Shown here one piece after another: positions 14,297-42,044 of a stretch of DNA of 47,192 nucleotides. Below the pieces are notes generated by a model. That model was not told the DNA's origin and did no database searches. It saw only the letters and a program-made list of their open reading frames with translations. Each line of letters begins with the position of its first letter. Position 1 is the stretch's first letter. A program made the translations under genes and the position numbers. This stretch comes from a virus: positions 1 through 47,192 of IMG/VR virus record IMGVR_UViG_3300012920_000066; one strand, 5' to 3'.

Positions 14297-14325
14297 ATTA
14301 TAACTTGTTTTAATTAATATGATAA
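14297..14325 (-). promoter_or_regulatory. Possible second, overlapping sigma70-type promoter
   Basis: TTATCA (14325-14320) and TATAAT (14302-14297) on the minus strand with a 17-base spacer, as at 5917-5945. The -35 overlaps the late box of gp25. Confidence 0.35.
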
Positions 14326-14328
14326 ATA
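14321..14328 (+). promoter_or_regulatory. Late promoter box GATAAATA, predicted leaderless start of gp25
   Basis: The last A of the box is 6 bases before the A of the gp25 ATG (14334). With T4 geometry the transcript would begin at the start codon. Confidence 0.75.
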
Positions 14329-14333
14329 AAGGT

Positions 14334-14708
14334 ATGGCAACAACATTCAGAGGATTTAATACTGTAGACAATATTAGAGCACCTTACTCATTGTATGATG
14401 TTGAGTTGGTTAAGAGAGATTTGCTAAACGAATTCTACACCAGGCAAGGGGAAAGGTTAATGAGACCTAATTTTGGATCTATTATTTGGGACCTTCTCAT
14501 GGAACCAGAAGATGTAACTACTGAACAAGATATCAGAGATGATATTGAACGTATTGTAGGCAAAGACCCAAGAGTAAAATTAAACGAAACAGTATTATAT
14601 ATTTCAGACCATACTATTAGAGCTGAAGTACATTTGAATTATGTTCAAGCAAATACAGACGATATTTTATATTTAGAATTCGTTAATAACAGTGGTGGTG
14701 ATGAATAA
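14334..14708 (+). CDS. 25: gp25-like baseplate wedge subunit
   Basis: The protein (124 residues from ATG 14334) shows the gp25/TssE signature: RDLLNEFYTRQGERLMRP followed by NFGSIIWDLLMEP, then a helix starting DIRDDIERIVGKDPRVKL. T4 gp25 (132 residues) links wedges to the tube/sheath initiation ring. An ATG at 14319 lies inside the late promoter and adds only MINKG, so I reject it as the start. AAAGG (14328-14332) lies next to the ATG but would be upstream of the predicted transcript start. The stop overlaps the gp6 ATG by one base (TAATG). Confidence 0.9.
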   Translation: MATTFRGFNTVDNIRAPYSLYDVELVKRDLLNEFYTRQGERLMRPNFGSIIWDLLMEPEDVTTEQDIRDDIERIVGKDPRVKLNETVLYISDHTIRAEVHLNYVQANTDDILYLEFVNNSGGDE

Positions 14709-17700
14709 TGGCATATTCAGATAGACAAAATAATTTATTTGCCGCAGAAGATTGGAAAATTGCGTACAAGGCTTTTAGTAATATAGATTTTACATCTTAT
14801 GACTTCAATACATTACGTTTGTCAATGGTGAATTACATAAAACAAAATTTTCCAGAAAACTTTAACGACTATATCGAAAGTTCAGAATTTATATCTATTA
14901 TAGAATTACTTGCATTTGTATCTCAATCTCTTGCATTTAGAATGGATATGAACAGCAGAGAAAATTTCCTCGAAACAGCAGAAAGAAGAGAATCAGTTTT
15001 TAAACTTGCAAGAATGTTAGGCTACTCGCCAAGAAGAAGAGTACCAGCATCAGGACTTGCAAAAATAGTATCTATAACAACATCAGAAAATATTTCAGAC
15101 AGTTTAGGAAATAACCTAGCAGGTAAACCAATTTTTTGGGCTGATGCCAACAATGCAGATGCATACGAGCAATTTATTACAGTATTAAATAGTGCTTTGG
15201 CTACATCAAATAGATTTACGTCTCCTGCTAAAGACGGCAAAGTAGGTGGAATACAAACTGAAATTTATAGAGTTTTAAAAACATTAAACAGTCCATTAGC
15301 ATTTACGTTTAATTCAAATGTAGCAGGAAGCCTTAGAAAATTTGAAGTTGTTGATGCAGACTTTTTTAATGAACAATATTTTTATGAAAGGCACCCTGAC
15401 CCAGTAAACAGTTTTGGATTAATTTATAGAAATGATGGTAAAGGCCAAAATAGTCCAAATTCAGGTTTCTTTGTAATGTTAAAACAAGGAGAATTAAAAT
15501 CTCAAGACTTTAACTTTACAGCACCTTTACCTAACAGGCAACAAGACCTGGGTGTAGTAGGTGTAAACCAAACAGACTTTTGGTTACAAGAAATTAGAGG
15601 CTCAGGTTCAGTAATAACAAAATGGACACAGATACCTAATACTATTGGGCAAACTGTAAATTTTAATGCTCAACAAAACAGAACAAGAAACTTATATGCC
15701 ACAGAATCGTTACCAAATGACGATATCAGAATTAAATTTACAGATGGTAACTTTGGAAGAATACCAACAGGAATTTATAGAGCATGGTACAGAACTAGTG
15801 ATAACGAAAATTATGCTATAAGACCAGCAGATATGGCAAATAAATCCATAACAATACCGTATGAAAATAGTTTAGGACAAGCACATAGGCTAACTGTAAC
15901 ATTTAGTTTACAAAGCACAATTAACAATGGTCTTCCTACAGAGTCTGTTGGTAACATTAAAAAGAATGCATCACAGGTTTACTACACACAAAACAGAATG
16001 GTATCAGCACAAGACTATAACGTGTTTCCATTTAGCAAAAGTAGTAACATACAAAAATTAAAAGCAGTTAATAAAACTCATGCAGGACATAGCAGATACA
16101 TTGACATAAATGACCCTACAGGAACTGTTCAAAATATAGATTTATACGGTGACGATGGGTATCTTTATAAAGAATATAATACGTCATCTTCAACTACAAC
16201 AATTAGTCCTAACAATACAGCAAATAATTTTGTAGAAACTGCAATACCTGAATTACTTAAAAATCAAGGACTTAATAATTTCTTATATGAAACAGCCAGA
16301 AAGAAATGGGTAGATTATAAAAATAATTCTTTTGATTTAGAAAGTTTAGACATTACATGGCGTCCTTTACCTGTATCAGATGAAGGCGCAACAGGTTATA
16401 TGACAGAAACTACCAGTGTAACTTCTGGTGGTTCAGAATCTGTATTAACAAATACATACTTAACATTTAAACAAATTCAGGAAAATAATTTTATTAAGTG
16501 GGTAAATCCTAATGATGTTGCAGATTATAAATGGGTAAGAATTACTAGAGAAGAAAATGCAGGTTTACTTACTAGTGGATTAAGTACAGCAGTAGGTCCT
16601 TGGACATTAAGTGCAAGTATCCCCACAGGTTGGAAAGCACATGAAGTAATTGTTACACTAAGGAAAAAATTACAAGGTACTGAAATATCAGCAGTACAAA
16701 GTCAAATAGAAAACAAAAAGACATTTGGTTTAGGATATGCACCAACTTTTATAAACAGTAATTTACTTGCTGATTCCTGGTTTATTATAGAAAACGAAAA
16801 TTTAGACAAAACATCTCCTTATGGAGTTGTTGATGCTGGTAAAACAACAGGTAATCCGATTGATAGTAGTTGGTTGTTATTGTTTACATTTGTACCAATT
16901 AATGAAACCTCATACAAATATGAAATAACTATTAGAGGCGAAAATTATATTATACAGAGTAACAGTGATATTAAATTTTACAATATTAATAATGTCAAAG
17001 TAGTAGATACTAATAACAAATCCAATATGGATAAAATCAGTGTTACCACACTAAACAACAAGCCTGGCAGTACAGAAAGATTTAGATGGTACAACAGCAA
17101 TCCTAGTGTTGACAGTTTAAACGATTCCTGGTACAGTGAAGAAACAGGAGCATTTACAACACCTGCATCAAGCTCATACAGTATAGGACTTCCTTTAAGA
17201 TCCAGAGATACTAAGTGGTTTGATGTTGGATTTGAATGGGAAAGTAATTTTGGTATATTAAGAACAGTAAGTCCAACGTCTAAGACACCAGCAGATATAA
17301 TTAATTTAGATACATTTGCAAATGATACAAAGGTAAGTGTAAACACTTATTTTGATGATGGAACAGCGGCCGCACTTACAAGTAATGTTACTATTGCAAA
17401 CAATGTAGGTAGAGTCAGCAAAATACCAGGAAATATAACTATACCATTTTCAAACACAACATTTGGATACGATATTATTAATAGTGAAGGTAATGTAATG
17501 TATAAGCAATATAACACTGGAACAGGTGTTGTGGAAATATACCATGCAAACAGTAGTGGTGTTACACATAGTTTTGGTGTAAATGGTGCTAGCCATAATG
17601 CAAGTTCACTAGGTAGACTTATACTTGCAAACGTAGATGTTGCAACACAGTCTGGTAATTTAGTATATACAGATTTAGAAAATCAAAATTATTTAGATGC

Positions 17701-19264
17701 TACAGACAGTAGTGGAAAAACATTTGTAGATAAAATTGTAATAAGTTATGAAAACTTTAAAGATAGACTGGATAAAAATATTGATTGGCATATTACAGGC
17801 ACTTACAAAGAACCAGATGGATATACTGATCCTTCAAAAGTTATAGTTGCTCCATTTGATACAGATAACGATTTAGTGCCAGATAGACCATTACAATTTT
17901 CAGAATTTGTGGACTCTAACGATCTAGTATTTTTTGAAAAATATGATGATTTCGATGGTTACACTTACGAAAGACCTTCTAAGGGACAAATTTTAGACTT
18001 TAGAGGTGAAACAGTTTTAGTAAGAGACGATTCTGCAGATACATTAAGTCCAGATAGTTATTACAATCCTGTAAAATTCCAGGATTCGACAACTGGTGTT
18101 GTTAATATATCTTGGATTGTTGTTGATACATATTCTATGGTAACAACATACTTACAGAACGATACAACAAAATTAAAAGGTGTTAAAGTTTATGTTTTAG
18201 ATGAAGAAAAAGTTTATATTATGACACCAAATAGTACAGCATTAAATCAGATACGACCAGTTGAGACTGACAAATATAGTGTTAAGCAAGGACGTGGAGA
18301 ATCTCAAAACACGTTACTTCCAGAAAGTTCGCAAATGGTATTTAAGTGGGAGCATGTTGCAGACAAAGATGTAAGAGTAGATCCTAGTATTAGTAATGTG
18401 ATAGAGATGACAGTTTTAACAAAAACATACAATGCTGACATACAAAAATTTATAAATGTTCCAGGATTAAGTTTTCCAGTACCACCTTCATCACAAGAGC
18501 TTGGCATACAATTTTCTGAATTAAATAGTTTCAAAAGTGCTAGTGACAGTTTAATATTTAAAAGTGCAAAATTCAAAAGACTTTTTGGTACAGATGCTAG
18601 TCCTGAACTACAAGCAAAATTCAGAGTTGTCAAAATATCAGAAACAGCAAGTGATAACGAAATAAAATCAAAAATCATTAAAGCATTTAATGAATATTTT
18701 GCTACAAGTAATTGGGAATTCGGAGAAACTTTTTATTTTACTGAACTAAGCAGTTATGTACATCAACAATTAAATGGCTTAATAGGAAGTATAGTATTAA
18801 TACCAAAAAGCGGAAATGCCAAATTCGGCGATATGTTTAGTGTAAAACCAGAATCAAATGAATTATTTTTAAGTACAGCAAAAGTTACAGATATAGAATT
18901 AGTAAGCAAACTTACAAGAACAACAATTGATATAGACAATGTTTCAAACGTGGTTGTTGCCAATGATGCAGTTGAATCTACAGGACCATATGCAATTAAC
19001 GGATATTATCCTTTATATGCTGATGAGGATCTTGCAAATGCGGCTGGCGATGGAACAAGCCACATACATAGATTTTACGGACAGGTATTTTACATGCCAA
19101 ATGGATTGGTAATGAATAAAACAATGTTCCATGGAAATTACACAGGAACAATAGGTGAGGATAGCAGTTCAACAGGTTCAGGTTCTACTGGAAGCTCAGG
19201 CTCTAGTGGTGGATCAGGATCAAGTGGAAGTGGTGGTTCAGGATCAAGTGGAAGTGGTTATTAA
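14708..19264 (+). CDS. 6: gp6-like baseplate wedge protein, unusually long
   Basis: The N-terminal 120 residues carry the gp6 signature: TLRLSMVNYIKQNFPENFND, then SSEFISIIELLAFVSQSLAF, RMDMNSRENFLETA and RMLGYSPRR. The C-terminal core of the family returns near residues 1240-1400. T4 gp6 has 660 residues; this protein has 1518, the extra length being a large central insertion of beta-rich sequence with many Asn, Ser and Thr. The last 33 residues are almost only Ser and Gly. gp6 forms the iris ring around the hub, and enlarged loops could contact the host or the giant neighbour protein. It lies between gp25 and the gp7-like gene, as in T4. Confidence 0.88.
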   Translation: MAYSDRQNNLFAAEDWKIAYKAFSNIDFTSYDFNTLRLSMVNYIKQNFPENFNDYIESSEFISIIELLAFVSQSLAFRMDMNSRENFLETAERRESVFKLARMLGYSPRRRVPASGLAKIVSITTSENISDSLGNNLAGKPIFWADANNADAYEQFITVLNSALATSNRFTSPAKDGKVGGIQTEIYRVLKTLNSPLAFTFNSNVAGSLRKFEVVDADFFNEQYFYERHPDPVNSFGLIYRNDGKGQNSPNSGFFVMLKQGELKSQDFNFTAPLPNRQQDLGVVGVNQTDFWLQEIRGSGSVITKWTQIPNTIGQTVNFNAQQNRTRNLYATESLPNDDIRIKFTDGNFGRIPTGIYRAWYRTSDNENYAIRPADMANKSITIPYENSLGQAHRLTVTFSLQSTINNGLPTESVGNIKKNASQVYYTQNRMVSAQDYNVFPFSKSSNIQKLKAVNKTHAGHSRYIDINDPTGTVQNIDLYGDDGYLYKEYNTSSSTTTISPNNTANNFVETAIPELLKNQGLNNFLYETARKKWVDYKNNSFDLESLDITWRPLPVSDEGATGYMTETTSVTSGGSESVLTNTYLTFKQIQENNFIKWVNPNDVADYKWVRITREENAGLLTSGLSTAVGPWTLSASIPTGWKAHEVIVTLRKKLQGTEISAVQSQIENKKTFGLGYAPTFINSNLLADSWFIIENENLDKTSPYGVVDAGKTTGNPIDSSWLLLFTFVPINETSYKYEITIRGENYIIQSNSDIKFYNINNVKVVDTNNKSNMDKISVTTLNNKPGSTERFRWYNSNPSVDSLNDSWYSEETGAFTTPASSSYSIGLPLRSRDTKWFDVGFEWESNFGILRTVSPTSKTPADIINLDTFANDTKVSVNTYFDDGTAAALTSNVTIANNVGRVSKIPGNITIPFSNTTFGYDIINSEGNVMYKQYNTGTGVVEIYHANSSGVTHSFGVNGASHNASSLGRLILANVDVATQSGNLVYTDLENQNYLDATDSSGKTFVDKIVISYENFKDRLDKNIDWHITGTYKEPDGYTDPSKVIVAPFDTDNDLVPDRPLQFSEFVDSNDLVFFEKYDDFDGYTYERPSKGQILDFRGETVLVRDDSADTLSPDSYYNPVKFQDSTTGVVNISWIVVDTYSMVTTYLQNDTTKLKGVKVYVLDEEKVYIMTPNSTALNQIRPVETDKYSVKQGRGESQNTLLPESSQMVFKWEHVADKDVRVDPSISNVIEMTVLTKTYNADIQKFINVPGLSFPVPPSSQELGIQFSELNSFKSASDSLIFKSAKFKRLFGTDASPELQAKFRVVKISETASDNEIKSKIIKAFNEYFATSNWEFGETFYFTELSSYVHQQLNGLIGSIVLIPKSGNAKFGDMFSVKPESNELFLSTAKVTDIELVSKLTRTTIDIDNVSNVVVANDAVESTGPYAINGYYPLYADEDLANAAGDGTSHIHRFYGQVFYMPNGLVMNKTMFHGNYTGTIGEDSSSTGSGSTGSSGSSGGSGSSGSGGSGSSGSGY
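19211..19258 (+). repeat. 24-bp tandem repeat in the Ser/Gly tail of gp6
   Basis: Two copies of a 24-base unit (19211-19234 and 19235-19258) differ at one position. Each encodes GSGSSGSG. A similar but more diverged unit precedes them. Confidence 0.8.
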
Positions 19265-22200
19265 TGGCTGACAAATTATATAAAAAGTTACCAGGAGTAT
19301 TGCAAACTACTGCGATAAAAAACTTCTTTGATAGTACTGTAGAGCAACTTTTTAGTCCTGCTAATGTTGAAGTTATAAATGGCTTCTTAGGTAAGCAGGA
19401 CAGCAATCAGTTTAATGTTAAAGGTAGTTTTTTAAGAGAGAGTACTGCAAATAGACATCATTACAGTTTAACACCAGCAGTAAATACACTAAACCTAGAA
19501 ACAGGCGAAAGTGAAAATTTTATTTTTTATGATGAGCTGGTTGATAAACTAAAAGTTTATGGTGTCGATACAAAAGATCATAATAGACTTTTTAGCACAA
19601 ATTATACATCATTCTTACCTCCTATAGATATAGACAAATTTGTAAACTATCAGGAATATTTTTGGAGCAACAATGATTTAAGAGCAATCACAGTTGCAGG
19701 ATCTTTAGAAAATCCTATAGACATAGATACTGACATTATAGGCAAAAAATCTTTTACTTCTGCAAACAATGTTACATTTAAAAATGGAATGGTGGTTTCC
19801 TTTTCAGGAGAATTTGTTATACCATCAAACAGATCTGGTATAGATTACTATGTTGAAGGTGTTGGAGAATCCATAAGACTAATACCTAGAAACCAAAACG
19901 TAGCAACAGGATATGCTACTGCTGTTTTAACAACATGGGATAATACTATTTTTACAGAGCTGGATAGTAATGTAAAACATACAGCAGGTAATATAACAAG
20001 TGTACAAATAGACAATGCAGGTATAGGATACTTAAATCCTACAGTAACATTTACTGGAGCAAATACAACACCTGCAACAGCAACAGCAAATGCTAATGCA
20101 TCTGGTAGCATCACAGATATTACTGTAACTGCAAATGGTACAGAATATAGTGCGCCTATAGGAATGGTTGTCACTGGTACAGAAGTATTTACAACACTTA
20201 ATGTTGCAAACACAATGGTATCATTTTATAATGCAGACAAAAGTACTAAAAAATATTCGTACAATAAATTAGCACTAGATGACAGCAGTAATATTTTTGT
20301 AGGACAAAATGTATTAATAAGTGGAACAGACAATGCAACAGTAGAAAGTTTAACAAATACTTCTATTGTTTCCATTAACAATATTACAAATAGTTTTGAT
20401 ACAAATAGAACACCTGGAATTTATACATCATCAGGTACTACAAGTGGTAGTGGTATAAATCAAAACTTTAGAGTTACAGTTTTTGATGAAACAGAAATTC
20501 AAACAATAGCAAACGTAAATGATAATAAATCTGTATGGGAAGGAAATGCTACTGTAGTTGCAATAAGAACAAACCTTACAAGAACAGGACTTACTGGTAA
20601 TGGAGGTTCAGGTACTGGAGCAACATTTGATGTTGAGTATGACGGGAGCCAAAATGTTACAGTTAGTGTTAATAATGCTGGTAGTGGATACCGTAGAAAT
20701 GATTTAATTAGTATTTTTGGTGACGACATAGATGGAATACCTGGAGGTGTTGATTTAACATTTAATGTTTTAGAGATAGAAAAACCTCAAGGCATATTTG
20801 AACTAGGAAATATCACACTTAGTAATGTGTCAGTTTCAGATACATCATTTTTAGTAGACATGTTAGACGTCCCCACAGCAGGAAACATAGCAACATCAGG
20901 TTCAGGTAATGATGCAATATTTAATGTTGTTATAAGTTCAGGTACTGTTAGTATTGATATTAATGATGGAGGTATTGACTTTTCAGAAGGAGATACTTTT
21001 ACAATTTATGGTAATCTTTTTGGAAGTGCAAACTCAGATACAATAACATTTACAATAGATAATGTTCTCGAACCAGGCGATAGTTTTATAGAATTACTTA
21101 ACGGTGGTACAGGACATGCTGTAGGTGATACAATTACAATTACTGACGCACAAATGGGCTCAGGTGGTGGATCAGATTTAACTTTTGGTATTGCTAGAGA
21201 AGGCGATATACTAGAAATTTCCGAGCAAGTATTACTAAATCAGGGTTCAAATTTAAGTGTAATATTTAATGGCACAGGATTTGAAGGCACAATAAGAACA
21301 GATATGTTCACATTTACTTCAAATGCTAGTGGTACATTTACCACTGGTATTTCAGATATGGCACTTAGTGGAGTTGACCCAAACACTGGAGACTTTTATT
21401 TAGGTGGTGCACCTGATAGCTCAACTAATTATGGTTGGGATTTAGATACAGATTTAGACGGTGATGGAGATGCTGTTTGGGGTGGTAAAACATCTCAAGG
21501 CAATCCAGACTATAATGTTATTAAAAGAGGTTCTGTAAACAGAAATATCTGGAGTAGGGTAAACTTTTGGCATCATAAACAAAATTATATTGATGCCGGT
21601 ATGGATGTACCTTCCAAAGAATTTAGAGCAAAAAGACCTATTATTGAATTTGACCATGATATTGAATTATATAATCATGGTACAAAATTTATAGGAGAAG
21701 TTTTAGTTGTAGAACCTGTAAAATCAAAATCAGAAATAGAAGGCTCTGCAGTAAGTATTTTGGTAGATGGTTCACCTTTACCAGTTGGTGGTACAATTAT
21801 ATTCCCTAACGAATCACCTAGTACAGCCAAATACATTTACAAAGTAGAACATGCAAACGCAGTAATAAATTTAACAAGAGTAGCAAACTTAAATGAAAAT
21901 CCTGTTAATTCTGTAGATGGTGATGCAGATTTTGTACCGTTAGAATTTACAGAAGGTTCAGTAGTTAATGTAAAAGCAGGTGAGCAAAACATTGGTTCAG
22001 AATGGTATTGGAAAAACAACCAATTAATAAAAGCACAAGAAAAATTAACATTACATCAGGCACCATTGTTTAATGCCTTTAATGATGAGGGAAATAATTT
22101 AGGTGATACAACAATATTTGCAAATAATGACTTTGCAGGTAGCAAAATATTTAATTATAAAATTGGATCAGGAACAAAGGATTCTGTATTAAACTTTCCT

Positions 22201-34200: not shown

Positions 34201-37200
34201 GACAGTTTAGGATCACCTGGTGGTTACGATCCAATTAATAACCAATTACTAGGTGGTGCTGGTGCTAAAATATTCTTAACAGCAAGTGAAATACCAGATT
34301 GTTCACAACCAGGAAGTGCAAAAAGAGCTCTTGGATTACCAGACTTAATATCAGATGTTGATGCTGTAACTGATTTTGGATCAGCATTACAGGCCGCAAT
34401 AGGCGATGCAGGTTATGGACCAGATGACTTTAATGTAAGTATAAATCCTGTAAATGATTTAATATCAGAAATAGATATTTCAAGTCCAATATTTGATGGA
34501 ATAGAGATAGGAGAAACAACTCCAGGTGTACTTGATGCAATAGGTTTACCGCCCGGCGATTATAATGTGGCATCTTTATGTGTACATGCAATACTAGAAA
34601 CAAAACTAAAAGATGAAAATCCAGTTGTAACAAATAAAATGAACCAACTAGTTGATGATTTAGGATTAGGATTAGATACTTCAGGACCAATAGATGTTGT
34701 GAAACTAATCTGTGTGGAACAAATTGGAGATGAAGAAGATAATAGTGCAAACCCTGGAAATGGACAAGATGATGTAAGTATATTTGGAGACGGAACTGTT
34801 GAGTTTATTAAAGATTTATTCCAATACGAATTGAGAAGTTTAACTGGTGATCCTGTAAGATTATTATCATCCGGTGCATCACAAGAAGCAGATATACTTT
34901 ACTTAGAAAGTCAACGATACTCTGGTAATACCCAGATAAGCTCATCTAATACAAACTATCCTGAAATTCCAAGTAGCATAAGTTCATTTGGAAATATTTG
35001 GATAGACAATTACAATGATTCAGGTAAATGGGCATATTTAGAAAATGGAACTGTAATTAGAGAACAAGAAGATTTAACAGATACCAGAAATATAAACAAA
35101 ATTATAACTTATAATGACGAAACAGGATTAAAACAAAATGATATTCATATGTTTGATCCGTTTAAAGGTATATTACCAGGATTTTTAGAAAACGAAATAC
35201 ATTTTATAGGCGAAAATGACCCAGTTGTATATGACGTTGCAAGAAGTAATTTCTGTGATGAGAAAATGATTGGTAAAATTTGGTGGGATACAAGTACATT
35301 AGCATATAATTGGTACGAACAAGGTAGCTCAAGGGAAAGATGGCTAAATTGGGGTAGTGTGTTCCCAGGAAGTTCTATAGGAATATACGAATGGGTACGA
35401 TCTAATGTGCCACCTACATCTTGGGATTTAGAAGGAACACCAAGAAGTGCATATATTGTAAAATCAGAACCTAACCCACAGACTGGTAAAATAACAGATT
35501 ACTATTATTACTGGGTAAGAAACAACAAATTACTATTACCTTTTGTAAGAGAAAATCAAAACAGACAATTTAGTGCATTTGATATAGCAAAATACCTATC
35601 AGATCCTGTAGGCTATGGTTTAAACTTGATAAGTTTTATAGACAAAAAATCTTTTGTAATGAGTAATATTGCAAATATATTAAATGATGATAACGACAAC
35701 TTACAAATTAACTTTAGTAGAAACCAAAATACTAATAGCATTAAACACGATTCATGGTTACTAGCAAGGAAAAATGATAACAACAGTAAAATACCAGAAG
35801 ATTTATCACAAAAACTAATTGATTCATTATGTGGTTTTGATGCTACAGGACAACAAGTACCAGACAAAAATTTAAGTAATGTACAAAAATATGGTTCGTC
35901 CTTTAGGCCTAGACAAACATTCTTTAAAGATGTAAAAGGTGCAAGAAAAGTAGCATTTGATTATATTAATAATTTATTTAAATTATTAAAAATGAATACA
36001 GAATTTAAAGATTGGAACAGTAACCTTGTAAGTAGTAGAAATTATTTTAGTAATACAGACTGGTTTGCAGTAAAATCAATTGATTATACTACTGGTTTAC
36101 CAGAGTATTATGATGATTCATATAAACCTGTTTATAGAGTAAACAGTACAACAGAATTTAATTCATTAAAAAATATTAGAGACGGTGTAGTTGTACAAGT
36201 TAAAGGAAGTGAAACAGACAGAAGTAGACTTTACATGTATGATGGTAACCTTAGAAAATATAATCTTATTAGTATAGAAAATGAAAATATTCAATTACAG
36301 GATTCTTTATACACTGATAATTCAAACACACTATTAGATAAAGAATTAAGAAGTATCTTAAACACTATTAAAGATAATAAATTTAATAATACTGTACACT
36401 GGAATTCCTTATTCTTCTTAATGTTAGAATATGCATACGGTGAGCATAGTGGTTTAAGTTGGGCATTCAAAACAAGTTATGTTTTTGTAGAGAAAGAAGA
36501 AGAAGATTTAATTAAGTTTGCTGGATTTAAGCCAGATAACTTTGAAAAAGTTCTAGAATACATGAACGAATTTAAACCTTATTCAACTAAAGTAAGAGAG
36601 TATAAAGATGGTAAACGTCCGCCTTTAGAGTATATTAAAGATCAAATGATAAGTGATTTTGATAAACCTCCTTATGCAGATATTAATCAAGGTGTAATAA
36701 GAATACTTGACGAAAGTTCGTCTAGCGATCTTGCACTTATGGCCAATAATGATGCATATAAGAAATATTCAACTATTACCAATAAAGGTGAGCAACCTAT
36801 TAGACAGGCAAAAACAAGTTTAATATTTGATAGAACAAACTGGCAACCAACACAATTCCAATGGAACCCAAGTACTGAAAGTGCTAATAGCAGTATTGCA
36901 ACAAACATAGCATGGCTACAATCTGCAAGTAATTCAGATGTAAGTGCTAATGCAAATGTTAGAGCTATAGACAGAATAATTAAGTTTGATTCCGGTGTTT
37001 CATCTAAATTTACAAACGAGATGGAAGTATATTTAACAGGTCAAGGATATGTTGCAGGGTCTAGTGCAAATACTACACTTATTAGTAATGCAACAATATT
37101 GTTAAATGCCATTGAAGCAGGATCATTAGATGGCACATTAAATAGTGCAAGAAATAAAGTTGGCGGAAACTTTATAGGTGATATTTTAGATGCTAATGTG

Positions 37201-37995
37201 TTTAGTAAAGTTGTAGATGGATATGATCCTACATTAGATTATCAAGAATTCTTTGGTTATGATTCAGAAGCATTTGATACAGTATCCAACGATATAAGCA
37301 TTGAAGTAATAAACTATTCAGGTACATTTGATAGTTCATTAATAAACTTTAGAAGAAATGATATTACATATGAAGGATTTGACGGTGTAACATTTAGCAG
37401 AATGCTATACGGAGAAGATAGGCCAGAAGAGCTAGTACAAATAGACCCACAAGAAAACTTTGTACTTACTGTTACAACAAGTCCTTATGCAAATGCTGAT
37501 TCAAGTAGTAATATTGTAGTAGCGAATGCACAACCTGTTACTTACAGAGTACATAGAGCAATGGATGGAGAAAGCCATTTCCTAAGAGTAAGATCAAGCA
37601 CCACATTAAGTGCTAACCTTTTATTAAGTGATAGGAGCATTAGTGTAGCAAATGCTAGTGTACTTCCAAGACCAACATTGGGTACGCCTGGTGTTTTATG
37701 GGTAGAATCAGAAAGAATTACATATAAAGAAAGAGATACCGTTAATAATATTTTAAGTGGTATTACAAGAGGAACAAAAGGAACTACTGCAGAAAACTGG
37801 TATGTAACTGATGAAGCAGGAGCAAATGTAACATTAAATGTATATGATGGCTCCAGTGATCAAGAATTTACAGATTTAGTAGGTGCTCCAGAGTCTAATA
37901 CATTCTTAGACACAGGCGCAGTAAGTTTAGCAGATTACGATAGTGCTAATGCAAGTAGTGTTACAAGTATAATGAAGTTTTTACATGACAAATAA
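19264..37995 (+). CDS. Giant gp7-like baseplate/virion protein, 6243 residues
   Basis: One uninterrupted frame takes up 40% of the window. Residues 1-130 have the start typical of large gp7-position proteins of marine myoviruses (KLPGVLQTTAIKNFFDSTVE; later HNRLFSTNYTSFLPPIDIDK). Other landmarks are an Asp-rich calcium-type loop (DLDTDLDGDGD, about 727-737), a YHYH-domain-like segment (HSGIVGWAFDGLPIYG from 1776), a beta-sandwich region with six Cys (about 3740-3950), a Gly/Ser/Thr linker (about 4143-4234), and a C-terminal block near 5180-5600 (IGKIWWDTSTLAYNWYEQG; IYEWVRSNVPPTSW). Short G-x-G-Y-x-x-x-D repeats occur near 253, 472, 614, 2605 and 4631-4708. T4 gp7 has 1032 residues. Position after gp6 and the N terminus support gp7; other parts may replace gp8-gp12 functions such as host contact. 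Confidence 0.7.
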   Translation: MADKLYKKLPGVLQTTAIKNFFDSTVEQLFSPANVEVINGFLGKQDSNQFNVKGSFLRESTANRHHYSLTPAVNTLNLETGESENFIFYDELVDKLKVYGVDTKDHNRLFSTNYTSFLPPIDIDKFVNYQEYFWSNNDLRAITVAGSLENPIDIDTDIIGKKSFTSANNVTFKNGMVVSFSGEFVIPSNRSGIDYYVEGVGESIRLIPRNQNVATGYATAVLTTWDNTIFTELDSNVKHTAGNITSVQIDNAGIGYLNPTVTFTGANTTPATATANANASGSITDITVTANGTEYSAPIGMVVTGTEVFTTLNVANTMVSFYNADKSTKKYSYNKLALDDSSNIFVGQNVLISGTDNATVESLTNTSIVSINNITNSFDTNRTPGIYTSSGTTSGSGINQNFRVTVFDETEIQTIANVNDNKSVWEGNATVVAIRTNLTRTGLTGNGGSGTGATFDVEYDGSQNVTVSVNNAGSGYRRNDLISIFGDDIDGIPGGVDLTFNVLEIEKPQGIFELGNITLSNVSVSDTSFLVDMLDVPTAGNIATSGSGNDAIFNVVISSGTVSIDINDGGIDFSEGDTFTIYGNLFGSANSDTITFTIDNVLEPGDSFIELLNGGTGHAVGDTITITDAQMGSGGGSDLTFGIAREGDILEISEQVLLNQGSNLSVIFNGTGFEGTIRTDMFTFTSNASGTFTTGISDMALSGVDPNTGDFYLGGAPDSSTNYGWDLDTDLDGDGDAVWGGKTSQGNPDYNVIKRGSVNRNIWSRVNFWHHKQNYIDAGMDVPSKEFRAKRPIIEFDHDIELYNHGTKFIGEVLVVEPVKSKSEIEGSAVSILVDGSPLPVGGTIIFPNESPSTAKYIYKVEHANAVINLTRVANLNENPVNSVDGDADFVPLEFTEGSVVNVKAGEQNIGSEWYWKNNQLIKAQEKLTLHQAPLFNAFNDEGNNLGDTTIFANNDFAGSKIFNYKIGSGTKDSVLNFPLTFKQFYKSSEIQFENFLETDKVTYTKDNTKTTVPGYFYYKKEKTIPEYHNLWKEGTNKSKQSVKTFYYIDRFDLTDENLIYFIGCIPEVNTNAPSGYDIKVKVNNDIVTNYTYTNNGLIKFNSFNFKNNDVIEIEAHSKTGLISERSISKFDVPLTWDRNTGKLDIENISKPEYLEHFSNFIKNTPGLTGEALGNNNVKDLVTNPSNATDIVKSDEDLILGSFLIDDRPHNLVDAINFSHKEFIGYKNRFKSEIERYYNSTVTEGYSNEYILEKVLRNVISYSVGKDVFQRTYTIPFGDNYVQEEKIINTLNDTTYTPTKYLDLSKIENSILVYRVRGAQVDLLEIDRDYSLTSTSTTNTFTPSSALDLQLADRLVFKIYDKERDSAECPPTPSVLGLYPLTQPEIITDNSFQTPIEVIVGHDGSKTPTVGTELDQILLEFETRIYNSAKKEFRDANSLPELSVFNVRAGKFRNTNFTNDEWYDLMRSNFNTWSIKNKTDFVKNEFYDSNNEWTWNYRGKTGLPGHWRGWYEYYYDTVRPHTHPWEMLGFTEKPTWWDTQYITTTYTDYSSSNIPMWDDLELGLIRQGPRENLSGDEYKDLENNPCARPGLKDVIPVDSSGNLLSPYDIDSTGSTTISKTYVETVANTSQGYKTTSYLLTDGLNIEFDSSNIYVHSKNIPNYDLSKINTSDSGQPVKNINSAYGIPIVDLNTISLSNTSMVSGAIGILINGQPLNNPNNGNTFENQGVWNYNSGFLYKDERDQGIIAHTDSNGLATVTVPTAEMSNTEVWGNSTTHSGIVGWAFDGLPIYGPYGYSTYHANGFVNDNAITNIKSSFELKPGVRSSHPGGNHTGLFLEDYQYSASLEALPGRTSKYNTRYGVTPDSPSTPIRFYVVTIDDEGKSMFPYAVGGGTQTDNTYNSEFYATPFEISTNKNGTFNNGSTTTSAIRSVFTETQTNDGTQGAEWRFGDGAPVENAWKYSSSYPYAVISALLLSKPGKFARAFADPTALLKTTLGPKSFRVDKNTRKTWNYKNADQFKIHGTLDTDNNFITNIGYSQFIRSWLKFQNYEITDYFKDILYTLNSKISHRMAGFVDSDTATIKTDQFSTTGNATSIIIPVENRTISIHDSGDKTRNNYSGVIVEKTEKGYKLKGFDPTLSYFNILESNKDKNSQSITRGGTPVAYTNWATNKEWPIGTIVNYLGAYYQANIRVPESDTFTASQWTRLPSLPQQGGAKGIIYLESTGIIKRVDYNREFETVQEVFDILVSLGRYQESLGFDFGEYDNTINAEKNWIYAAEQFLFWVSGGWEIGNTLELSPGAGKISFYKENEAISEIKRVYRDQFSILDQDGSAIDPKDCEIIREGNKLEISPPIGKQIFSLTVYTKQVEHILSVDSISEFNDTYYNDLLNQRIRRLNFKGKRTLGWEGRFSSEGFIIEGGELQPNLDNITSTMANYHTIGFVPVDKQIYNASRRLIGFETKPYLTELGITDDEQVEFYKGAIQSKGTLNAIGKILNSNAIVQGNVSIFDEWALKAGSFGDLDNNQSIELKLSKQDIVQDPQLFQLEFPEDTTGIVKEIVITERKSSYYETPLIEINAPTKSPKKQATAVATLSSDGTINSISITEPGSGYEKDDTTLTVLTSNLNVASNTYTFNYVSAVSTSLFADANVTGIANITIIDHFASNVSAQNIDLSSVTEVANIVTQINQNSVTNANITASAIATFDSNANTTTHVLQISGSDFTLGGSGLANLNLTAQRYQPRQRFGFNIANNTTVSDVVVAVDGTNVPRVDGNVTYWEYDPGDRFQYTTSTLTTSGSFDVDIASLTGLINSSSVLADENTTLVEGLYPYVDVYVNGTKLENTVDQSQYSVPNNTTVRILDVTNLEEGNIVPNSNIYVVEKATIDFTDDYQGDVPSSELSIKVQSNEGFSVQLSSKRIFDITPDIKNDEIITIDIDDKHRFLKKPTGIRTNELWPLVSNVDYTGVKDAEFTKLPNAGYVDRNHVNYQSFRVVDMPDLFGVDRLLKPSKNELIHIARSENDDWNVYKLREPQDAGISFIEQDGTASSYLYTTKDLFEYVDSNQLQQTDLSRFLDYTLVIKRARTSEDVVIWTNQEVVDKKSAVIRDFGAITMLQANVESIGVSNTSPFYFEFTNITPGVRSKLVGDIVKADANGTVTFASGGGTTITNGDQIELLDPDHQPYTFTASSLAHTDTANATSGSANAFHDSKITITSSNVADVSNIVNNITPIEISFTGGNIDVDTTSESVTSLRYLPSNVDYANGTFDIHTDDSDFQSYFGNVANTTITAVTSNISSISFTTYTHSNVHLQTVTASNVNLNNGTFTFNQSNVTANATNIVGRLLTKCDLEVIGHGLYTGEIVKVLSNNIRGYYQVESATEDSFTINAPYHANLDTTGYVLTRGLHIKTSEDHELPVEYNGKRVMIHQADNPYYNQTYTVGYVKSNTEIIVEDVFAWNAKEDDVSPSYTATVSGNVTNSNKVILSNPPIQIGRKFIVTGTGITDRVRVSDISKMNVTGEITLDKKVTVSDTTVLTFEKECVMTTLDHDMVRFNNSVFRIDDTTTPQGIVESFNNTQAIKAGLINKRGNDTFGMSIPMLKRPYLPDGTPYRSYAGKTPYVRNEELSGDVSSNLTKSGHIRFRNPNNANYKPFNKNSVQNYIDPNSPMGGSYGSGSRSPYDNYVSNPHYFGSGGSVFGGPDVDIGKTYGSFNNGLVDVPVWTKNPAQGGQDSSLNNNGPGAPIFTGQALQGAPEKRCGPDACASTNRAGRGIPHSVIKGNGPITWSSQNFAIESTGTITVSGTVTGTGAGARKWTSDYSGYYSPAGKTGGSKLDFKKRAAAGAITWSDNGGTSSFSIPVKVKEAGKIFIHGFQSGKRRYDTTTVSVSVVSGNASIVGTSTVTCRYMGTGYNPPSGAGAVIEVEMDADAEILVTGTCLGGGNHWHCNEMHVSGSRSALNRQSERITKDANGDPSGNTGSQSGNGDFTIFDYSDKLGWNKVEEFNFESPGSGTATLLFNNYSGNDGIQVFSGPSKGSEDNLLIESVWSNLRRLTNEERQELRNTFVVSSTGATNHNYAKINYDDNEIRNSNPKSKRTNQLIGVKYAGAMDFDIPAGSDKYIKVVVPKASMIFDHILKLPNATPTPDNPVTDPNPVVACGQQNSMPAGPGDGTTQPPGSNTSGTGGSTTGGGSTGGNTGSGNAGGSGGSTGGSGNQQQNTASSTASVNPGGSPGGAGGGSAGKNYSTMYGNPIKQQVIDYYKQIGQYPGPNKIPQFNFNTIGQTSGFYRSPMTGLGFIPSIYRKPVKMVTNNNYGVPISLASGRYVNNQVQKISGGFVVPLAQRLTKNIPLKSRPLRNLDASELPYYNVLDTNRTAFEKGGMFYNFDPKKISGDYKLGDGTFLSITGAELTGADVGFGLGEMLYYTDPYNGSTIDDDAPVDTMPVTPPEEIDDIIDLEDEDIVWNPNYQITLQPKIDGRRAGPRVIVPLYKPVPGFTIDTGNIAGLNPEDTFTINGRTIGPFKGSSPEAILKAINCVDATGFEAKPLSNDLIRISSCSNVPLTVKEGCSGGLYKEVLDFHINRAFVAQEVSNTATVSATIIPDANTDFSVSYAHLDVTGGVNGYSNVSSTQGFVTSSNVVQTGGSGYSVGDRLRVVGGTPIKDPFTGVKEICIKNPGAGYSLPENVIVTVGDGSTPGRNALVKNVVFDKNNGIKKVNLYAGGEEYDVNRPPRVTIIDTGSIGVPTEYSNTLSRGDFINYMVYSISLIDTVGTVANSIPVGETIITEETNGVTVSENANKITGVGARLKVIVTQSDAGVKSATVEVMKGGKHYQVNQVFTIRPDVLGGTFSDTPLTFQVGNVNPNILRYGQLIADSTDHDTLGDALEHGIISWKNGFLQPQQAELEAVLDNKPGGRVPRVAKFEVTSVDYYGTITSVRILDRGIYKVFPSDLTNGLPLEYDHVLLGDEAGWNNEGTEYVGGSGLGQFDPITLDSLGSPGGYDPINNQLLGGAGAKIFLTASEIPDCSQPGSAKRALGLPDLISDVDAVTDFGSALQAAIGDAGYGPDDFNVSINPVNDLISEIDISSPIFDGIEIGETTPGVLDAIGLPPGDYNVASLCVHAILETKLKDENPVVTNKMNQLVDDLGLGLDTSGPIDVVKLICVEQIGDEEDNSANPGNGQDDVSIFGDGTVEFIKDLFQYELRSLTGDPVRLLSSGASQEADILYLESQRYSGNTQISSSNTNYPEIPSSISSFGNIWIDNYNDSGKWAYLENGTVIREQEDLTDTRNINKIITYNDETGLKQNDIHMFDPFKGILPGFLENEIHFIGENDPVVYDVARSNFCDEKMIGKIWWDTSTLAYNWYEQGSSRERWLNWGSVFPGSSIGIYEWVRSNVPPTSWDLEGTPRSAYIVKSEPNPQTGKITDYYYYWVRNNKLLLPFVRENQNRQFSAFDIAKYLSDPVGYGLNLISFIDKKSFVMSNIANILNDDNDNLQINFSRNQNTNSIKHDSWLLARKNDNNSKIPEDLSQKLIDSLCGFDATGQQVPDKNLSNVQKYGSSFRPRQTFFKDVKGARKVAFDYINNLFKLLKMNTEFKDWNSNLVSSRNYFSNTDWFAVKSIDYTTGLPEYYDDSYKPVYRVNSTTEFNSLKNIRDGVVVQVKGSETDRSRLYMYDGNLRKYNLISIENENIQLQDSLYTDNSNTLLDKELRSILNTIKDNKFNNTVHWNSLFFLMLEYAYGEHSGLSWAFKTSYVFVEKEEEDLIKFAGFKPDNFEKVLEYMNEFKPYSTKVREYKDGKRPPLEYIKDQMISDFDKPPYADINQGVIRILDESSSSDLALMANNDAYKKYSTITNKGEQPIRQAKTSLIFDRTNWQPTQFQWNPSTESANSSIATNIAWLQSASNSDVSANANVRAIDRIIKFDSGVSSKFTNEMEVYLTGQGYVAGSSANTTLISNATILLNAIEAGSLDGTLNSARNKVGGNFIGDILDANVFSKVVDGYDPTLDYQEFFGYDSEAFDTVSNDISIEVINYSGTFDSSLINFRRNDITYEGFDGVTFSRMLYGEDRPEELVQIDPQENFVLTVTTSPYANADSSSNIVVANAQPVTYRVHRAMDGESHFLRVRSSTTLSANLLLSDRSISVANASVLPRPTLGTPGVLWVESERITYKERDTVNNILSGITRGTKGTTAENWYVTDEAGANVTLNVYDGSSDQEFTDLVGAPESNTFLDTGAVSLADYDSANASSVTSIMKFLHDK

Positions 37996-38018
37996 TAAAA
38001 CTAGTTATTTGCAAAAGT

Positions 38019-38026
38019 GATAAATA
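38019..38026 (+). promoter_or_regulatory. Late promoter box GATAAATA, predicted leaderless start
   Basis: The box ends 6 bases before the A of ATG 38032, the same spacing as at gp25. No Shine-Dalgarno is present. Confidence 0.75.
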
Positions 38027-38031
38027 GTTAC

Positions 38032-38676
38032 ATGAGCAATGATATGAACCAAAATATAGAAAATGAAAACAACTCGTTAGAAAATCAAACAGTTGATAAT
38101 GCTGGCATTAATGTCAGCGGTCATATTGTAATAAAAGATTTAGACACAAACGAAGTACTAGTAAATAAACGTAATGCAATCCATTATGGAAACATGGCAT
38201 ATATTGTAGCACAGGCTTTAAATGCCTTTAATACAGAGAATGCCTTTATAGATAGAATTGCATTTGGTAATGGTGCTACAAGTGTTGATACAGCAGGAAA
38301 AATTTTATATAAAACGCCAAGAGTTTCAGAAAGTTACGAAAACTCAGCAGGCCTGTACAGCAGAACTTTTGATAAAAGATTGAATCCAGCAACAACGGAT
38401 ACATCTATTACAACGGTTGTAGGTTCCTCACACACAGACATTAAGGTTACATGTACTTTAGGATACAATGAACCAAGCGACGCAGACTTATTTGATACAG
38501 CAACTAATAACGAAGGTGATTATGTATTTGATGAATTAGGTCTATTTACATACCCAACAGATGGTAGTAGTATAGATACTAGCACAATGCTAACTCACGT
38601 GGTATTTCACCCTGTACAAAAAAGTCAAAACAGAAAAATTGAAATAGTTTATACTGTAAGAGTTCAGTTAAGTTAG
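38032..38676 (+). CDS. Putative virion protein, marine-myovirus type
   Basis: The protein has 214 residues from ATG 38032; a GTG at 38017 lies over the promoter and is rejected, and ATG 38044 is an alternative. After a polar N terminus it contains VSGHIVIKDLDTNEVLVNKR, then NAIHYGNMAYIVAQALN, FIDRIAFGNGA and VFDELGLFTYP. This pattern recurs in uncharacterised structural proteins of T4-like marine phages next to tail-fibre genes. It is mainly beta-strand. Its place between the giant baseplate protein and the fibre-like proteins suggests a wedge or fibre-attachment role. I see no relation to T4 gp8 or gp9. Confidence 0.6.
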   Translation: MSNDMNQNIENENNSLENQTVDNAGINVSGHIVIKDLDTNEVLVNKRNAIHYGNMAYIVAQALNAFNTENAFIDRIAFGNGATSVDTAGKILYKTPRVSESYENSAGLYSRTFDKRLNPATTDTSITTVVGSSHTDIKVTCTLGYNEPSDADLFDTATNNEGDYVFDELGLFTYPTDGSSIDTSTMLTHVVFHPVQKSQNRKIEIVYTVRVQLS

Positions 38677-38686: not shown

Positions 38687-40531
38687 ATGGCATATACAAT
38701 AACAAATTCAGATAATAGTAGGACAATAACTGTCCAAGATACTACTGTCGATACCACCTATGCCTTAAAGTTAATCGGAAGAAACGTATCAGGATATGGA
38801 CAGTATTTTGTAGAAAATACAGTAAGACATCTTGAAAACTTCGCTAGTACCACATCACCATCTGGTGAGAAATTAACTGGGCAACTTTGGTATGATAAAA
38901 GTGAAAGTATCTTAAAATACTGGAATGGGTCTACATGGAAAAGAGCAACAAATATAATTGTAAACTCTAGTGCTCCAAGTACATCCAATACAGGTGATGC
39001 ATGGTTTGATACCGGAAATCAAAAGTTATACATTTATAATGGTACAACATATAAACCAGCCGCATACTCAGGTGAGGTTACAAATGAATACTCAAGTGAT
39101 TCAAGTGTGGGTTCTCCTAGTAATTACGGTACAAAATTAAGAAATATTTATTTAACAGACTCAGGTGGTAATCCTAAGCCTGTTTTAGGTTTAGTTTACG
39201 TCAGTGATGGTACAGTTAATGGTGGTGCAACAACTACAACTGACGGTAAAGAAACATTGATGGCGGTGTTCAGTGATCATCCAGAATTTGTTGCTGGAAG
39301 TACTGACAGTAAATCAGACGGTCAAAACATAAACTACTTTACAGAATTAGGATCAACAGGTGGTATAGGTACAACTATTAAGCCAGGTATGAACCTTAGA
39401 AGTGAATATGCCGCAACAGCCGTTGCATTGGCAGAAAGAGCATATAAGGCCGATACAGCATATAAAATTAATTTAGGTAATATAGGCTCCCCAGGCTCAA
39501 ACATTGATGCTGGATCTATAATTACAACATTAGGAAGTTATATACCAACAACTGACGATGCATTTACACTAGGTAGTGCAAGTTTTAAATTTGCTGAAAT
39601 GTACTCAGGTACTATCACAATAGGTGATGGTTCAACAGGTTTAATAAGTGCAAATGGTAGTGTTGATCTAGGTACATCAAGTACAAGATTTGCTAACGGT
39701 TATTTTACAAACATTGATGTAAGTGGTAATGTTACATTTGGTGCTGGTACACAAAATTTAGGTACAAGTGGAGCACCAGTTGAAAACTTCTTTACAGCAA
39801 ATGCAAGTATTACTACTAGCCTTTCATTAGGTTCAGGTGGTACAGCATTTACACTTCCAATTACTGACGGAAGTGCAGACCAGGCCCTTATTACAGACGG
39901 TTCAGGAACTGTAAGTTTTGGTAATGTTGCTTTAAGTACAACAACACTTACTGCAGGAGCCGGTCTTACAGGTGGCGGAGACTTATCTACAAATAGAACA
40001 TTTGACGTTGGAGCAGGTAGTTACATGATTGTAAATGCTGATAGTATAGAAGCAGATGCAACAACGGCCGCAACAGCAAACAAACTGGTTGCTAGAGATG
40101 GTGCTGGTAATGTGGCGGCAAATTACTTTGTAGGTACTGCTACACAGGCTCAATATGCTGACTTGGCTGAGATTTATGAAGCAGATGCAGAATATGAAGC
40201 CGGAACAGTTGTTAAATTGGGCGGAGAAAAAGAAATTACACAAACATCGAATCACGCAGATCCAGATGTATTTGGTGTTATATCTACAAACCCAGCATAC
40301 TTAATGAATAGTGATGCAAGTGGTTTACCAGTAGCATTACAGGGAAGAGTTCCTGTTAAAGTAATTGGTAAAATTGCTAAAAGCGAAAGATTAGTTGCTA
40401 GTGACGAGCCTGGAATGGCTTGGGCATTAGGCACAGACGAGTATGATGCTAGAGCAATTATTGGTAGAAGTTTACAAGATAAAGAAGACGGTGGCATAGG
40501 AATAGTAGAAGCAGTCATCGGTGCGAAATAG
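38687..40531 (+). CDS. Tail fibre-like protein with C-terminal G2-peptidase-like domain
   Basis: A 614-residue fibre-type protein. The N-terminal 100 residues contain the block LTGQLWYDKSESILKYWNGS (about 65-84), typical of marine-phage tail fibres. The centre has repeats of the type LGSASFKFAEMYSGTI / LGTSSTRFANGYFTNI (near 300 and 335). After a GLTGGGDLSTNRTFDVG segment, the C-terminal 150 residues (ATQAQYADLAEIYEADAEYE, then VFGVISTNPAYLMN and LQGRVPVKV) resemble the intramolecular chaperone/peptidase G2 type that trims or trimerises fibres. I did not identify a catalytic Ser-Lys pair with certainty. AGAGGATAA precedes the ATG. It is co-transcribed with the gene before it and is likely a receptor-contact protein. 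Confidence 0.7.
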   Translation: MAYTITNSDNSRTITVQDTTVDTTYALKLIGRNVSGYGQYFVENTVRHLENFASTTSPSGEKLTGQLWYDKSESILKYWNGSTWKRATNIIVNSSAPSTSNTGDAWFDTGNQKLYIYNGTTYKPAAYSGEVTNEYSSDSSVGSPSNYGTKLRNIYLTDSGGNPKPVLGLVYVSDGTVNGGATTTTDGKETLMAVFSDHPEFVAGSTDSKSDGQNINYFTELGSTGGIGTTIKPGMNLRSEYAATAVALAERAYKADTAYKINLGNIGSPGSNIDAGSIITTLGSYIPTTDDAFTLGSASFKFAEMYSGTITIGDGSTGLISANGSVDLGTSSTRFANGYFTNIDVSGNVTFGAGTQNLGTSGAPVENFFTANASITTSLSLGSGGTAFTLPITDGSADQALITDGSGTVSFGNVALSTTTLTAGAGLTGGGDLSTNRTFDVGAGSYMIVNADSIEADATTAATANKLVARDGAGNVAANYFVGTATQAQYADLAEIYEADAEYEAGTVVKLGGEKEITQTSNHADPDVFGVISTNPAYLMNSDASGLPVALQGRVPVKVIGKIAKSERLVASDEPGMAWALGTDEYDARAIIGRSLQDKEDGGIGIVEAVIGAK

Positions 40532-40538
40532 ATAAATA
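40531..40538 (+). promoter_or_regulatory. Late promoter box GATAAATA with leader
   Basis: It follows directly on the fibre stop codon. Transcription should start near 40544; the leader carries AGGAG (40559-40563) before ATG 40570. Confidence 0.75.
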
Positions 40539-40569: not shown

Positions 40570-41619
40570 ATGGCATCAGGAAGTTCAGTTACAATAGACG
40601 GCGGAACAAATATGACGCAAGTCGTGGCGGGAGATATTATTGATGATGCAGATTTCAATAATGCCAGAACTAATGTAAACACATTATTAACCACAGCCGC
40701 AGACATTACTTTTAGTAGTGGAAGTACTATGGCCGCAGTAAATACTATCTTTGGTTATGGACAAGGCGGTGCAGGTGTTAATGCCGCAAGTGCAGGTGGA
40801 TTGGTTTATGCCGATAATGCCACAGGTGGTTTTAAAAGATTACAAGACGATGTACAGGCCCTTTGTGCATTTTTAGGTCAATCAGTAAGAACAAACGTTG
40901 GATCAGATGTAACATCAAGTACAATAATTGATGACACAACTTGGTCTAACCTCATGCTAAATGTTAAAGATTGTTGGGACAACAGATTTAGCCCAGCAAG
41001 TAGAACAAGCTCAACAGGCGATAGTGCTCAAAGAACAGCGGCATGGACAACAAGTTTAGAACAAGAAACAACTTATACATGGGCAAACGAAGGTTTATTA
41101 AGAGCCTTTTTTAATGGCGGTGGAAGAATTGGCATGAGTGCTAGTAGAAGTGGTGGTACAAGTTCATCACAAAATACAGACTGGACTAACTTACTAAGTG
41201 CTATGGGTGATGTTTATATTGATTACCAAACAGCAGGTGGTAGCTCAGGAACAAATGAAGGCAAAGGTGCTTATGAATTAGGTACAAGTTATCAATTACT
41301 TTGGACTAAATTAGGTTCAGGTGCTTATGCTTCAAACTATTTTAAAATGTATGGTAAAGTAAATTCAACAACTAACCCTACAGTTATTACACTTAAAGCA
41401 GAATTAAGCGACCCTTACACAGCGGCCGCGGCCGCGGCGGCAGATGGTGCCGTTGGTCCTGACGGTGTACCAAGTACTGGTGACGATGCGGCAGGATATA
41501 CAGACAGCATTGACGGAACATTAACAATATTTGGAAGACGTCATTTACCAGATGCAAGTGGTTCAGGATTTAGTTTTACTAATCCAACTACAAGCTCAGG
41601 TTCAATAAGCGGATCATAA
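40570..41619 (+). CDS. Virion/fibre-associated protein of marine-phage type
   Basis: A 349-residue protein with an N-terminal DFNNARTNVNTLL segment, a central FKRLQDDVQALCAFLGQ segment (about 89-105) and the characteristic ANEGLLRAFFNGGGRIGMSA block (about 171-190), followed by NTDWTNLLSAMGDV. These features occur in T4-like marine phage structural proteins of unknown exact position, often near tail fibres. The C-terminal half is beta-rich, with an eight-residue T-A7 run at about 283-290 encoded by a dense GC-rich tract (41421-41440) holding two overlapping NotI sites. It is alone behind its own late promoter and in front of a strong terminator, so it is likely needed in large amounts. Confidence 0.65.
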   Translation: MASGSSVTIDGGTNMTQVVAGDIIDDADFNNARTNVNTLLTTAADITFSSGSTMAAVNTIFGYGQGGAGVNAASAGGLVYADNATGGFKRLQDDVQALCAFLGQSVRTNVGSDVTSSTIIDDTTWSNLMLNVKDCWDNRFSPASRTSSTGDSAQRTAAWTTSLEQETTYTWANEGLLRAFFNGGGRIGMSASRSGGTSSSQNTDWTNLLSAMGDVYIDYQTAGGSSGTNEGKGAYELGTSYQLLWTKLGSGAYASNYFKMYGKVNSTTNPTVITLKAELSDPYTAAAAAAADGAVGPDGVPSTGDDAAGYTDSIDGTLTIFGRRHLPDASGSGFSFTNPTTSSGSISGS

Positions 41620-41636
41620 TAAAAATAAAACTTTTA

Positions 41637-41667
41637 AAAGCCAGTTCATAGTAACTGGCTTTTTTTT
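41637..41667 (+). terminator. Strong rho-independent terminator
   Basis: AGCCAGTT (41639-41646), loop CATAGT and AACTGGCT (41653-41660) form a perfect 8-bp stem that AAA/TTT extends, followed by eight T (41660-41667). It closes the tail-gene transcription unit. Confidence 0.9.
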
Positions 41668-41671
41668 GACT

Positions 41672-41679
41672 TATAAATA
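41672..41679 (+). promoter_or_regulatory. Late promoter box TATAAATA, predicted leaderless start
   Basis: A perfect T4 late consensus 4 bases after the terminator T-run. It ends 6 bases before the A of ATG 41685; there is no room for a Shine-Dalgarno. Confidence 0.8.
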
Positions 41680-41684
41680 TTGAC

Positions 41685-42044
41685 ATGAGTACACGTTTGA
41701 CAAAAGCATTAGAGTTTGCTAATTATCGTACCACTTTAAATAATCAGCAGGCTCAATTAAAAGCAAAAACTCAAAGCCTTTTGAGTTACAGTATTAATGG
41801 TGGAACATTTACCATTGATATTCCATTAATAACATTCTGCAAACAACTTTTGGATGAAGGTCAAAAACAGGTTGTACTCTTGGATATATACAATAATCCT
41901 ATTCAGATTGAAATAGAAAGTTTTTACGAAGAAATACAAAGTAGATATTTTGAAGTAACAAACGATTATTATGCTGAATATGAAAAGTTAAGAAAATCAA
42001 GAAAAGTACACAAAGTATTAGACCTCAATGAAGACGGAACTTAA
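41685..42044 (+). CDS. Conserved-type small protein of T4-like marine phages, unknown function
   Basis: A 119-residue protein beginning MSTRLTKALEFANYRTTLNN, with an NGGTFTIDIPLITFCKQL segment in the middle, a QKQVVLLDIYNNPIQIE strand pair and a C-terminal helix (SRYFEVTNDYYAEYEKLRKS). I recognise this layout from uncharacterised proteins of marine myoviruses, but no function is known to me. There is no signal or membrane segment. The ATG sits at the predicted transcript start of a perfect late box. Its 3' end overlaps the next gene by 17 bases, so the two are translationally coupled. Confidence 0.7.
   Translation: MSTRLTKALEFANYRTTLNNQQAQLKAKTQSLLSYSINGGTFTIDIPLITFCKQLLDEGQKQVVLLDIYNNPIQIEIESFYEEIQSRYFEVTNDYYAEYEKLRKSRKVHKVLDLNEDGT

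Follow-up and report, generated by a model that had tools for sequence, protein, structure and literature searches.

In the late promoters of phage T4 (gp55/gp33/gp45), the box spans positions -13 to -6 (PMC1524935), so that positions 12/13, counted in the register of the box, correspond to the T4 start site. The virus DNA analysed here, from a marine relative of T4, resembles this system in its 8-base box, its gp55-type sigma factor and its late structural genes. The late genes of T4 are leadered, whereas those genes in the relatives of our sequence whose ATG follows the box after exactly five bases (the N5 layout) are predicted to be leaderless. Gene 25 provides an example: in T4 it carries a split Shine-Dalgarno (SD) sequence with a hairpin (PMC3014915), whereas the gp25 gene of our sequence is predicted to be leaderless.

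Leaderless phage mRNAs as such are already known. The middle and late mRNAs of phage P23-45 are leaderless, like those of phiYS40. In the latter, a Thermus phage, most middle and late mRNAs are of this kind, and the levels of IF2 and IF3 are changed (PMC3594737). The likeness to phiYS40 lies in late phage genes being carried on leaderless mRNAs, here by prediction; the promoter system and the host differ, and one large relative of our sequence, G001, mixes predicted leaderless and SD-bearing late promoters, about half each among those recognisable. The cI gene of lambda is likewise expressed from a leaderless mRNA, and the translation of such mRNAs by 70S ribosomes has been reviewed (PMC9031893). 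Its AUG is also 5'-terminal, but cI is an isolated gene, whereas the fusion of promoter and start codon proposed here would be genome-wide. Among phages closer to the present subject, 15 late promoters have been found in Melnitz (PMC9004378), and in the pelagimyophages late promoters could not be predicted (PMC7029224); the N5 layout is unreported in both studies. Our literature search, which covered subscription journals only to a small extent, found no account of leaderless mRNAs arising from gp55 promoters; leaderless promoters of the gp55 type were thus not found described.

Late boxes and start codons in the window

The window, that is, the whole stretch of virus DNA that was analysed, comprises 47,192 nt (IMG/VR record IMGVR_UViG_3300012920_000066, positions 1-47,192). 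It contains six late boxes of the form KATAAATA, all on the plus strand, where 14.2 would be expected over both strands. At three of these six boxes an ATG begins 13 bases past the first base of the box. The resulting pattern, KATAAATA-N5-ATG, is confirmed by our counts: it occurs three times where 0.22 occurrences are expected, and none of 100 shuffles reaches three. The first-pass annotation had reported this spacing at 14321/14334, 38019/38032 and 41672/41685, and the coordinates are exact.

The first of these boxes, GATAAATA at 14321..14328 (plus strand), stands five bases before the ATG at 14334 of a gp25-like baseplate wedge gene (14334..14708, plus strand; phrog_261/43 baseplate wedge), so that its predicted +1 is 14334 itself; the start of the protein is conserved. 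The second, also GATAAATA (38019..38026, plus strand), stands five bases before the ATG at 38032 of a phrog_11259 gene (38032..38676, plus strand), after a giant ORF of 6243 aa. The third, TATAAATA (41672..41679, plus strand), is followed at the same distance by the ATG at 41685 of a gene whose protein begins with MSTRLTKALEFANY (41685..42044, plus strand). All three genes are predicted to be leaderless.

The other three boxes, each GATAAATA on the plus strand, had been described as having a leader and an SD sequence, and they do. The box at 5941..5948 has its predicted +1 at 5954, an SD of AGGAG and an ATG at 5967, which gives a leader of 13 nt; that at 40531..40538 has a predicted +1 at 40544, again AGGAG, an ATG at 40570 and a leader of 26 nt; and that at 45305..45312 has a predicted +1 at 45318, AGGAC, an ATG at 45349 and a leader of 31 nt. 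All six boxes of the window show a pyrimidine-purine (Y-R) step at bases 12/13 of their register.

The boxes are credible late promoters because the window encodes both a matching sigma factor, gp55, and T4-like baseplate genes. The gp55-type gene, whose product is the expected reader of the boxes, lies at 4957..5826 on the minus strand (phrog_12791, E 3.9e-95). Neither the gp33 coactivator nor the gp45 clamp was seen among the window genes scanned. By similarity of gp6 and gp55, PA5oct, RaK2, 121Q and Atu_ph07 are distant relatives. The genes for SbcC- and SbcD-like proteins and gp55 form a minus-strand run (1378-5826), divergent from the late promoter at 5941. The 6243-aa ORF (19264-37995) is flanked by a gp6-like gene and the 38032 gene, and in the matching position PA5oct and Atu_ph07 encode long structural proteins of the virion.

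An analogous placement had also been pointed out behind a sigma70 promoter, and it is conserved. An alpha/beta hydrolase (esterase/lipase) gene on the minus strand (13655..14260, ATG at 14260) is preceded by a sigma70-type promoter, TTGACA...TATAAT (14261..14294, minus strand), with six bases (GGAGTA) from TATAAT to the ATG. Among the 33 distinct contexts of the hydrolase orthologues, 27 repeat the arrangement TAnnnT-N6-ATG and a further three have N6-GTG. The hydrolase is thus predicted to be leaderless through an equivalent fusion with a sigma70 promoter, its ATG standing six bases past the -10 element. We do not take the sigma70 N6 arrangement for a broad class, the corresponding peak in our pooled set of related loci being mostly the hydrolase together with the homologue of the 41685 gene in three contigs; G001 and a second large relative, G002, contain a few further sigma70 N6 candidates.

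Conservation of the five-base spacing

The spacing was followed through the orthologues of the three N5 genes. It is found in front of gp25 in all 84 related loci, which represent 28 distinct upstream sequences. The 38032 family has 81 distinct orthologue contexts; 41 of them show the spacing, and several more have a gap of six or an ATT at the N5 position. In L129 and other 38032 homologues, and at 59714 in the cultured Pelagibacter phage HTVC008M, an ATT stands at N5 with an ATG immediately behind it, or the gap is six or eight; we regard these as near-leaderless variants. HTVC008M gp13 and Mosig gp25, where the ATG lies eight bases past the box, were rejected as strictly leaderless and are near-leaderless at most.

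Among close orthologues of the 41685 gene, the N5 spacing persists even with a box degraded to NNTAAATA. In distant orthologues the box is displaced from the gene and an SD sequence (CAGGA, GGAGG) is present instead. In L104, L113 and L114, a sigma70-like promoter replaces the late box of the 41685 homologue, with the ATG six bases past the -10 element. An intrinsic terminator, GCCAGTT...AACTGGC-T8 (41636..41667, plus strand; -9.8 kcal/mol, z -3.2), ends beside the box at 41672 and is present in most close orthologues. Because this terminator adjoins the promoter, read-through into the gene would be limited. Elsewhere, read-through from upstream late genes could add leaders without an SD; for example, the 38032 gene starts 36 nt past the giant ORF.

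We also counted the spacing genome-wide, the check that the first-pass annotation had proposed, and the outcome supports its leaderless interpretation: a sharp peak at exactly five bases is present in the pool, in both large relatives and in pelagic myophages from culture, with none in T4. The pool comprises 271 loci (4.46 Mb), that is, the window and its relatives around homologues of gp25, the 38032 gene, the 41685 gene and gp55. The counting rule admitted ORFs of 30-40 codons and used a simple SD pattern. Among 175 dereplicated GATAAATA sites of the pool, 44 have an open ATG at a gap of five, a set in which gp25 and 38032 homologues are over-represented, having served as search baits. Gaps of 6-15 are almost empty, and a second hump, with SD sites, lies at 16-40. 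Unrelated control octamers of similar composition give no five-base peak in the pool.

The counts in single genomes are without this bait bias. In G001 (IMG/VR 3300020360_000085, 250 kb) 26 of 101 NATAAATA sites have an open ATG at a gap of five, and in G002 (340 kb) 16 of 121 do, with seven more at a gap of six; either genome may be incomplete. The gap is five at 9 of 45 boxes in HTVC008M and at 5 of 145 in PA5oct, one of the latter belonging to the gene that starts at 49602. No open ATG stands at this gap in T4 (0/65 NATAAATA sites), RaK2 (0/66) or Syn9 (0/38). We rejected cyanophages as carriers of the layout, P-SSM2, P-SSM4 and Syn9 being at control level. Controls with the pattern reversed give no hit in G001, Mosig or Melnitz, a single one in HTVC008M and three in G002.

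The layout is present in the pelagimyophages HTVC008M and Mosig and in the Methylophilales phage Melnitz; it precedes gp2 in all three, and gp25 in HTVC008M. In these phages, 19 of 21 N5 ATGs match CDS starts annotated by independent annotators (9/9 in HTVC008M, 7/8 in Mosig, 3/4 in Melnitz).

Three of the window's boxes are preceded, at a distance of 15-16 bp, by a near-palindrome, TTAWAAC-nn-GTTWTAA, at 5918-5933 (box 5941), 14298-14313 (box 14321) and, as a weaker sequence match, at about 37998-38012 (box 38019); this element is conserved in relatives. It is possibly an activator site. The late promoters of T4 are without a conserved upstream (-35-like) element (PMC2988020). Since the near-palindrome is limited to a subset of promoters, we rejected it as a general part of the leaderless signal.

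Start-site signatures and alternative readings

A start-site signature independent of the spacing to the ATG is in agreement. At leadered, SD-bearing promoters of the relatives, position 13 of the box register is a purine in 88% of cases, and a Y-R step occurs at positions 12/13 in 55%, versus 25% at other positions. At N5 genes in five genomes, a pyrimidine immediately precedes the ATG in 53 of 54, compared with about 46% at SD starts, and the codon at N5 is ATG in 61 cases, GTG in one and TTG in one. The three N5 genes of the window had been described as having no usable ribosome site, and this extends to the class: SD-like motifs occur at 3 of 50 leaderless starts versus 81 of 100 leadered ones, the latter figure being somewhat favourable since leadered ATGs were picked with a preference for an SD. 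Predicted structure in the first 40 nt is weaker in the leaderless class (mean -1.1 versus -3.3 kcal/mol, p 5e-11), a difference due partly to composition and to over-represented families. In the second promoter mode the leader is 11 nt or longer and bears an SD; hardly any leader measures 1-10 nt, a length that leaves no room for an SD. This bimodality of leader length is informative in its own right.

The best reading of these patterns, and in our judgement a highly probable one, is that gp55 late promoters are fused to the start codon and give rise to leaderless mRNAs. T4-type late promoters would be read by an RNA polymerase equipped with the gp55 that the phage itself encodes, gene and motif both being present. 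At a large share of these promoters the A of the ATG would be the +1 base, as the spacing and the start-site signatures suggest. The mRNA would then begin with 5'-AUG and have no SD, and 70S ribosomes would bind the 5'-terminal AUG, an established route that we apply here by extension. A second class of late promoters would start at the same +13 position but possess a leader of at least 11 nt and an SD. Leaderlessness of the N5 class is a strong prediction, for which the +1 position was placed according to T4 and to the base bias of the sequences.

Four other explanations deserve consideration. Transcription might start a few bases away, for example at +12 or +14, so that the mRNA has a leader of 1-3 nt or begins inside the AUG. 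Neighbouring start bases are often used by RNA polymerases, and such near-leaderless mRNAs would fit the seven gap-6 sites of G002, as well as several orthologues of the 38032 gene that have the N6 spacing; but the main mode is exactly five, with a pyrimidine at -1, and we judge this account unlikely.

A second possibility is that translation starts at an in-frame NTG overlapping the box, on an mRNA from an upstream promoter, in which case the N5 ATG would be an internal codon. Two of the window's three sites do have an open frame there (ATG 14319, GTG 38017), but both codons lie upstream of the predicted +1, and such start codons are not conserved across N5 genes. No SD precedes any upstream in-frame start in the N5 genes of six sequences, and the N5 ATG is itself the first possible start in 19 of 19 genes of HTVC008M, Mosig and Melnitz and in 19 of 26 of G001. 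Moreover, leadered promoters, too, can have a T at -1 of the box, and there it is independent of the frame of the gene. We reject an upstream NTG start for most genes and consider it very improbable as an explanation of the class.

It is also conceivable that the fixed spacing reflects an A/T-rich, non-SD translation signal (such as S1 binding) within leadered mRNAs. Non-SD initiation exists, and the sequence before the ATG is A/T-rich; but the same box occurs 16-60 bases before SD-led genes, accompanied there by the +13 start-site signature. The window encodes gp55, T4 possesses boxes without the N5 spacing, and orthologues gain an SD where the box is displaced, all of which leaves this explanation with very little probability. 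Finally, chance or shared ancestry, that is, three coincidences in an A/T-rich window, might be entertained for the few sites of the window taken alone, but the shuffles, the peak over many unrelated genes in several genomes and the flat controls make it negligible.

Gene classes, dosage and significance

Assuming that promoter-codon fusion does produce leaderless mRNAs, the late promoters that can be recognised in G001 divide about equally into leaderless ones and ones with an SD. The predicted leaderless class of G001 includes the terminase large subunit, a gp13-like head-tail adaptor, gp25, PAAR, a thioredoxin-domain protein and many unknowns, and its leadered class the tail sheath, tail tube, portal and tail-fibre proteins. 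In HTVC008M the predicted leaderless genes are gp25, gp54, gp2, a putative tape measure and a baseplate wedge gene. A clear SD precedes the major capsid and sheath genes of HTVC008M, Mosig and Melnitz, and most of their tube, portal and scaffold genes. None of the capsid, sheath, tube, portal or scaffold genes of these three phages is leaderless by this measure; several low-copy proteins are.

Between G001 and G002, genes for the most part stay in their class, and a few switch. Among leaderless genes, eight remain N5 or N6 and one becomes box plus SD; among leadered genes, nine remain box plus SD, and three score as N5 or N6 (one of them probably spurious). The first-pass annotation had proposed that two initiation classes set protein dosage. 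That the leaderless class contains several low-copy or accessory proteins and none of the abundant virion proteins agrees with this proposal, and the correspondence of the leaderless class to low and the leadered class to high dosage is suggestive only, resting on few annotated genes. For two lineages, the jumbo relatives and the pelagimyophages, we tentatively put forward, as plausible if somewhat doubtful, that the fusion acts as a heritable switch between low-output leaderless and high-output SD expression, so that virion stoichiometry would be set by promoter spacing.

Ribosomal protein S21 and IF3 were rejected as candidate causes of the layout. S21 is encoded in 10 of 16 records (G002-G006, G008, PA5oct, SCTP-2, Atu_ph07 and HTVC008M) but is missing from G001, the genome richest in predicted leaderless genes. 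Four records (G005, G008, Atu_ph07 and RaK2) encode IF3, with no clear link.

The N5 layout makes it possible to predict the precise 5' ends of dozens of genes in cultured phages, and allows a simple test of protein dosage via leaderless translation. It may also bear on the failure of late-promoter prediction in pelagimyophages: if our reading is true, the distance to the ATG becomes a means of locating late promoters. A large share of the late genes in abundant ocean phages would then bypass the Shine-Dalgarno route.
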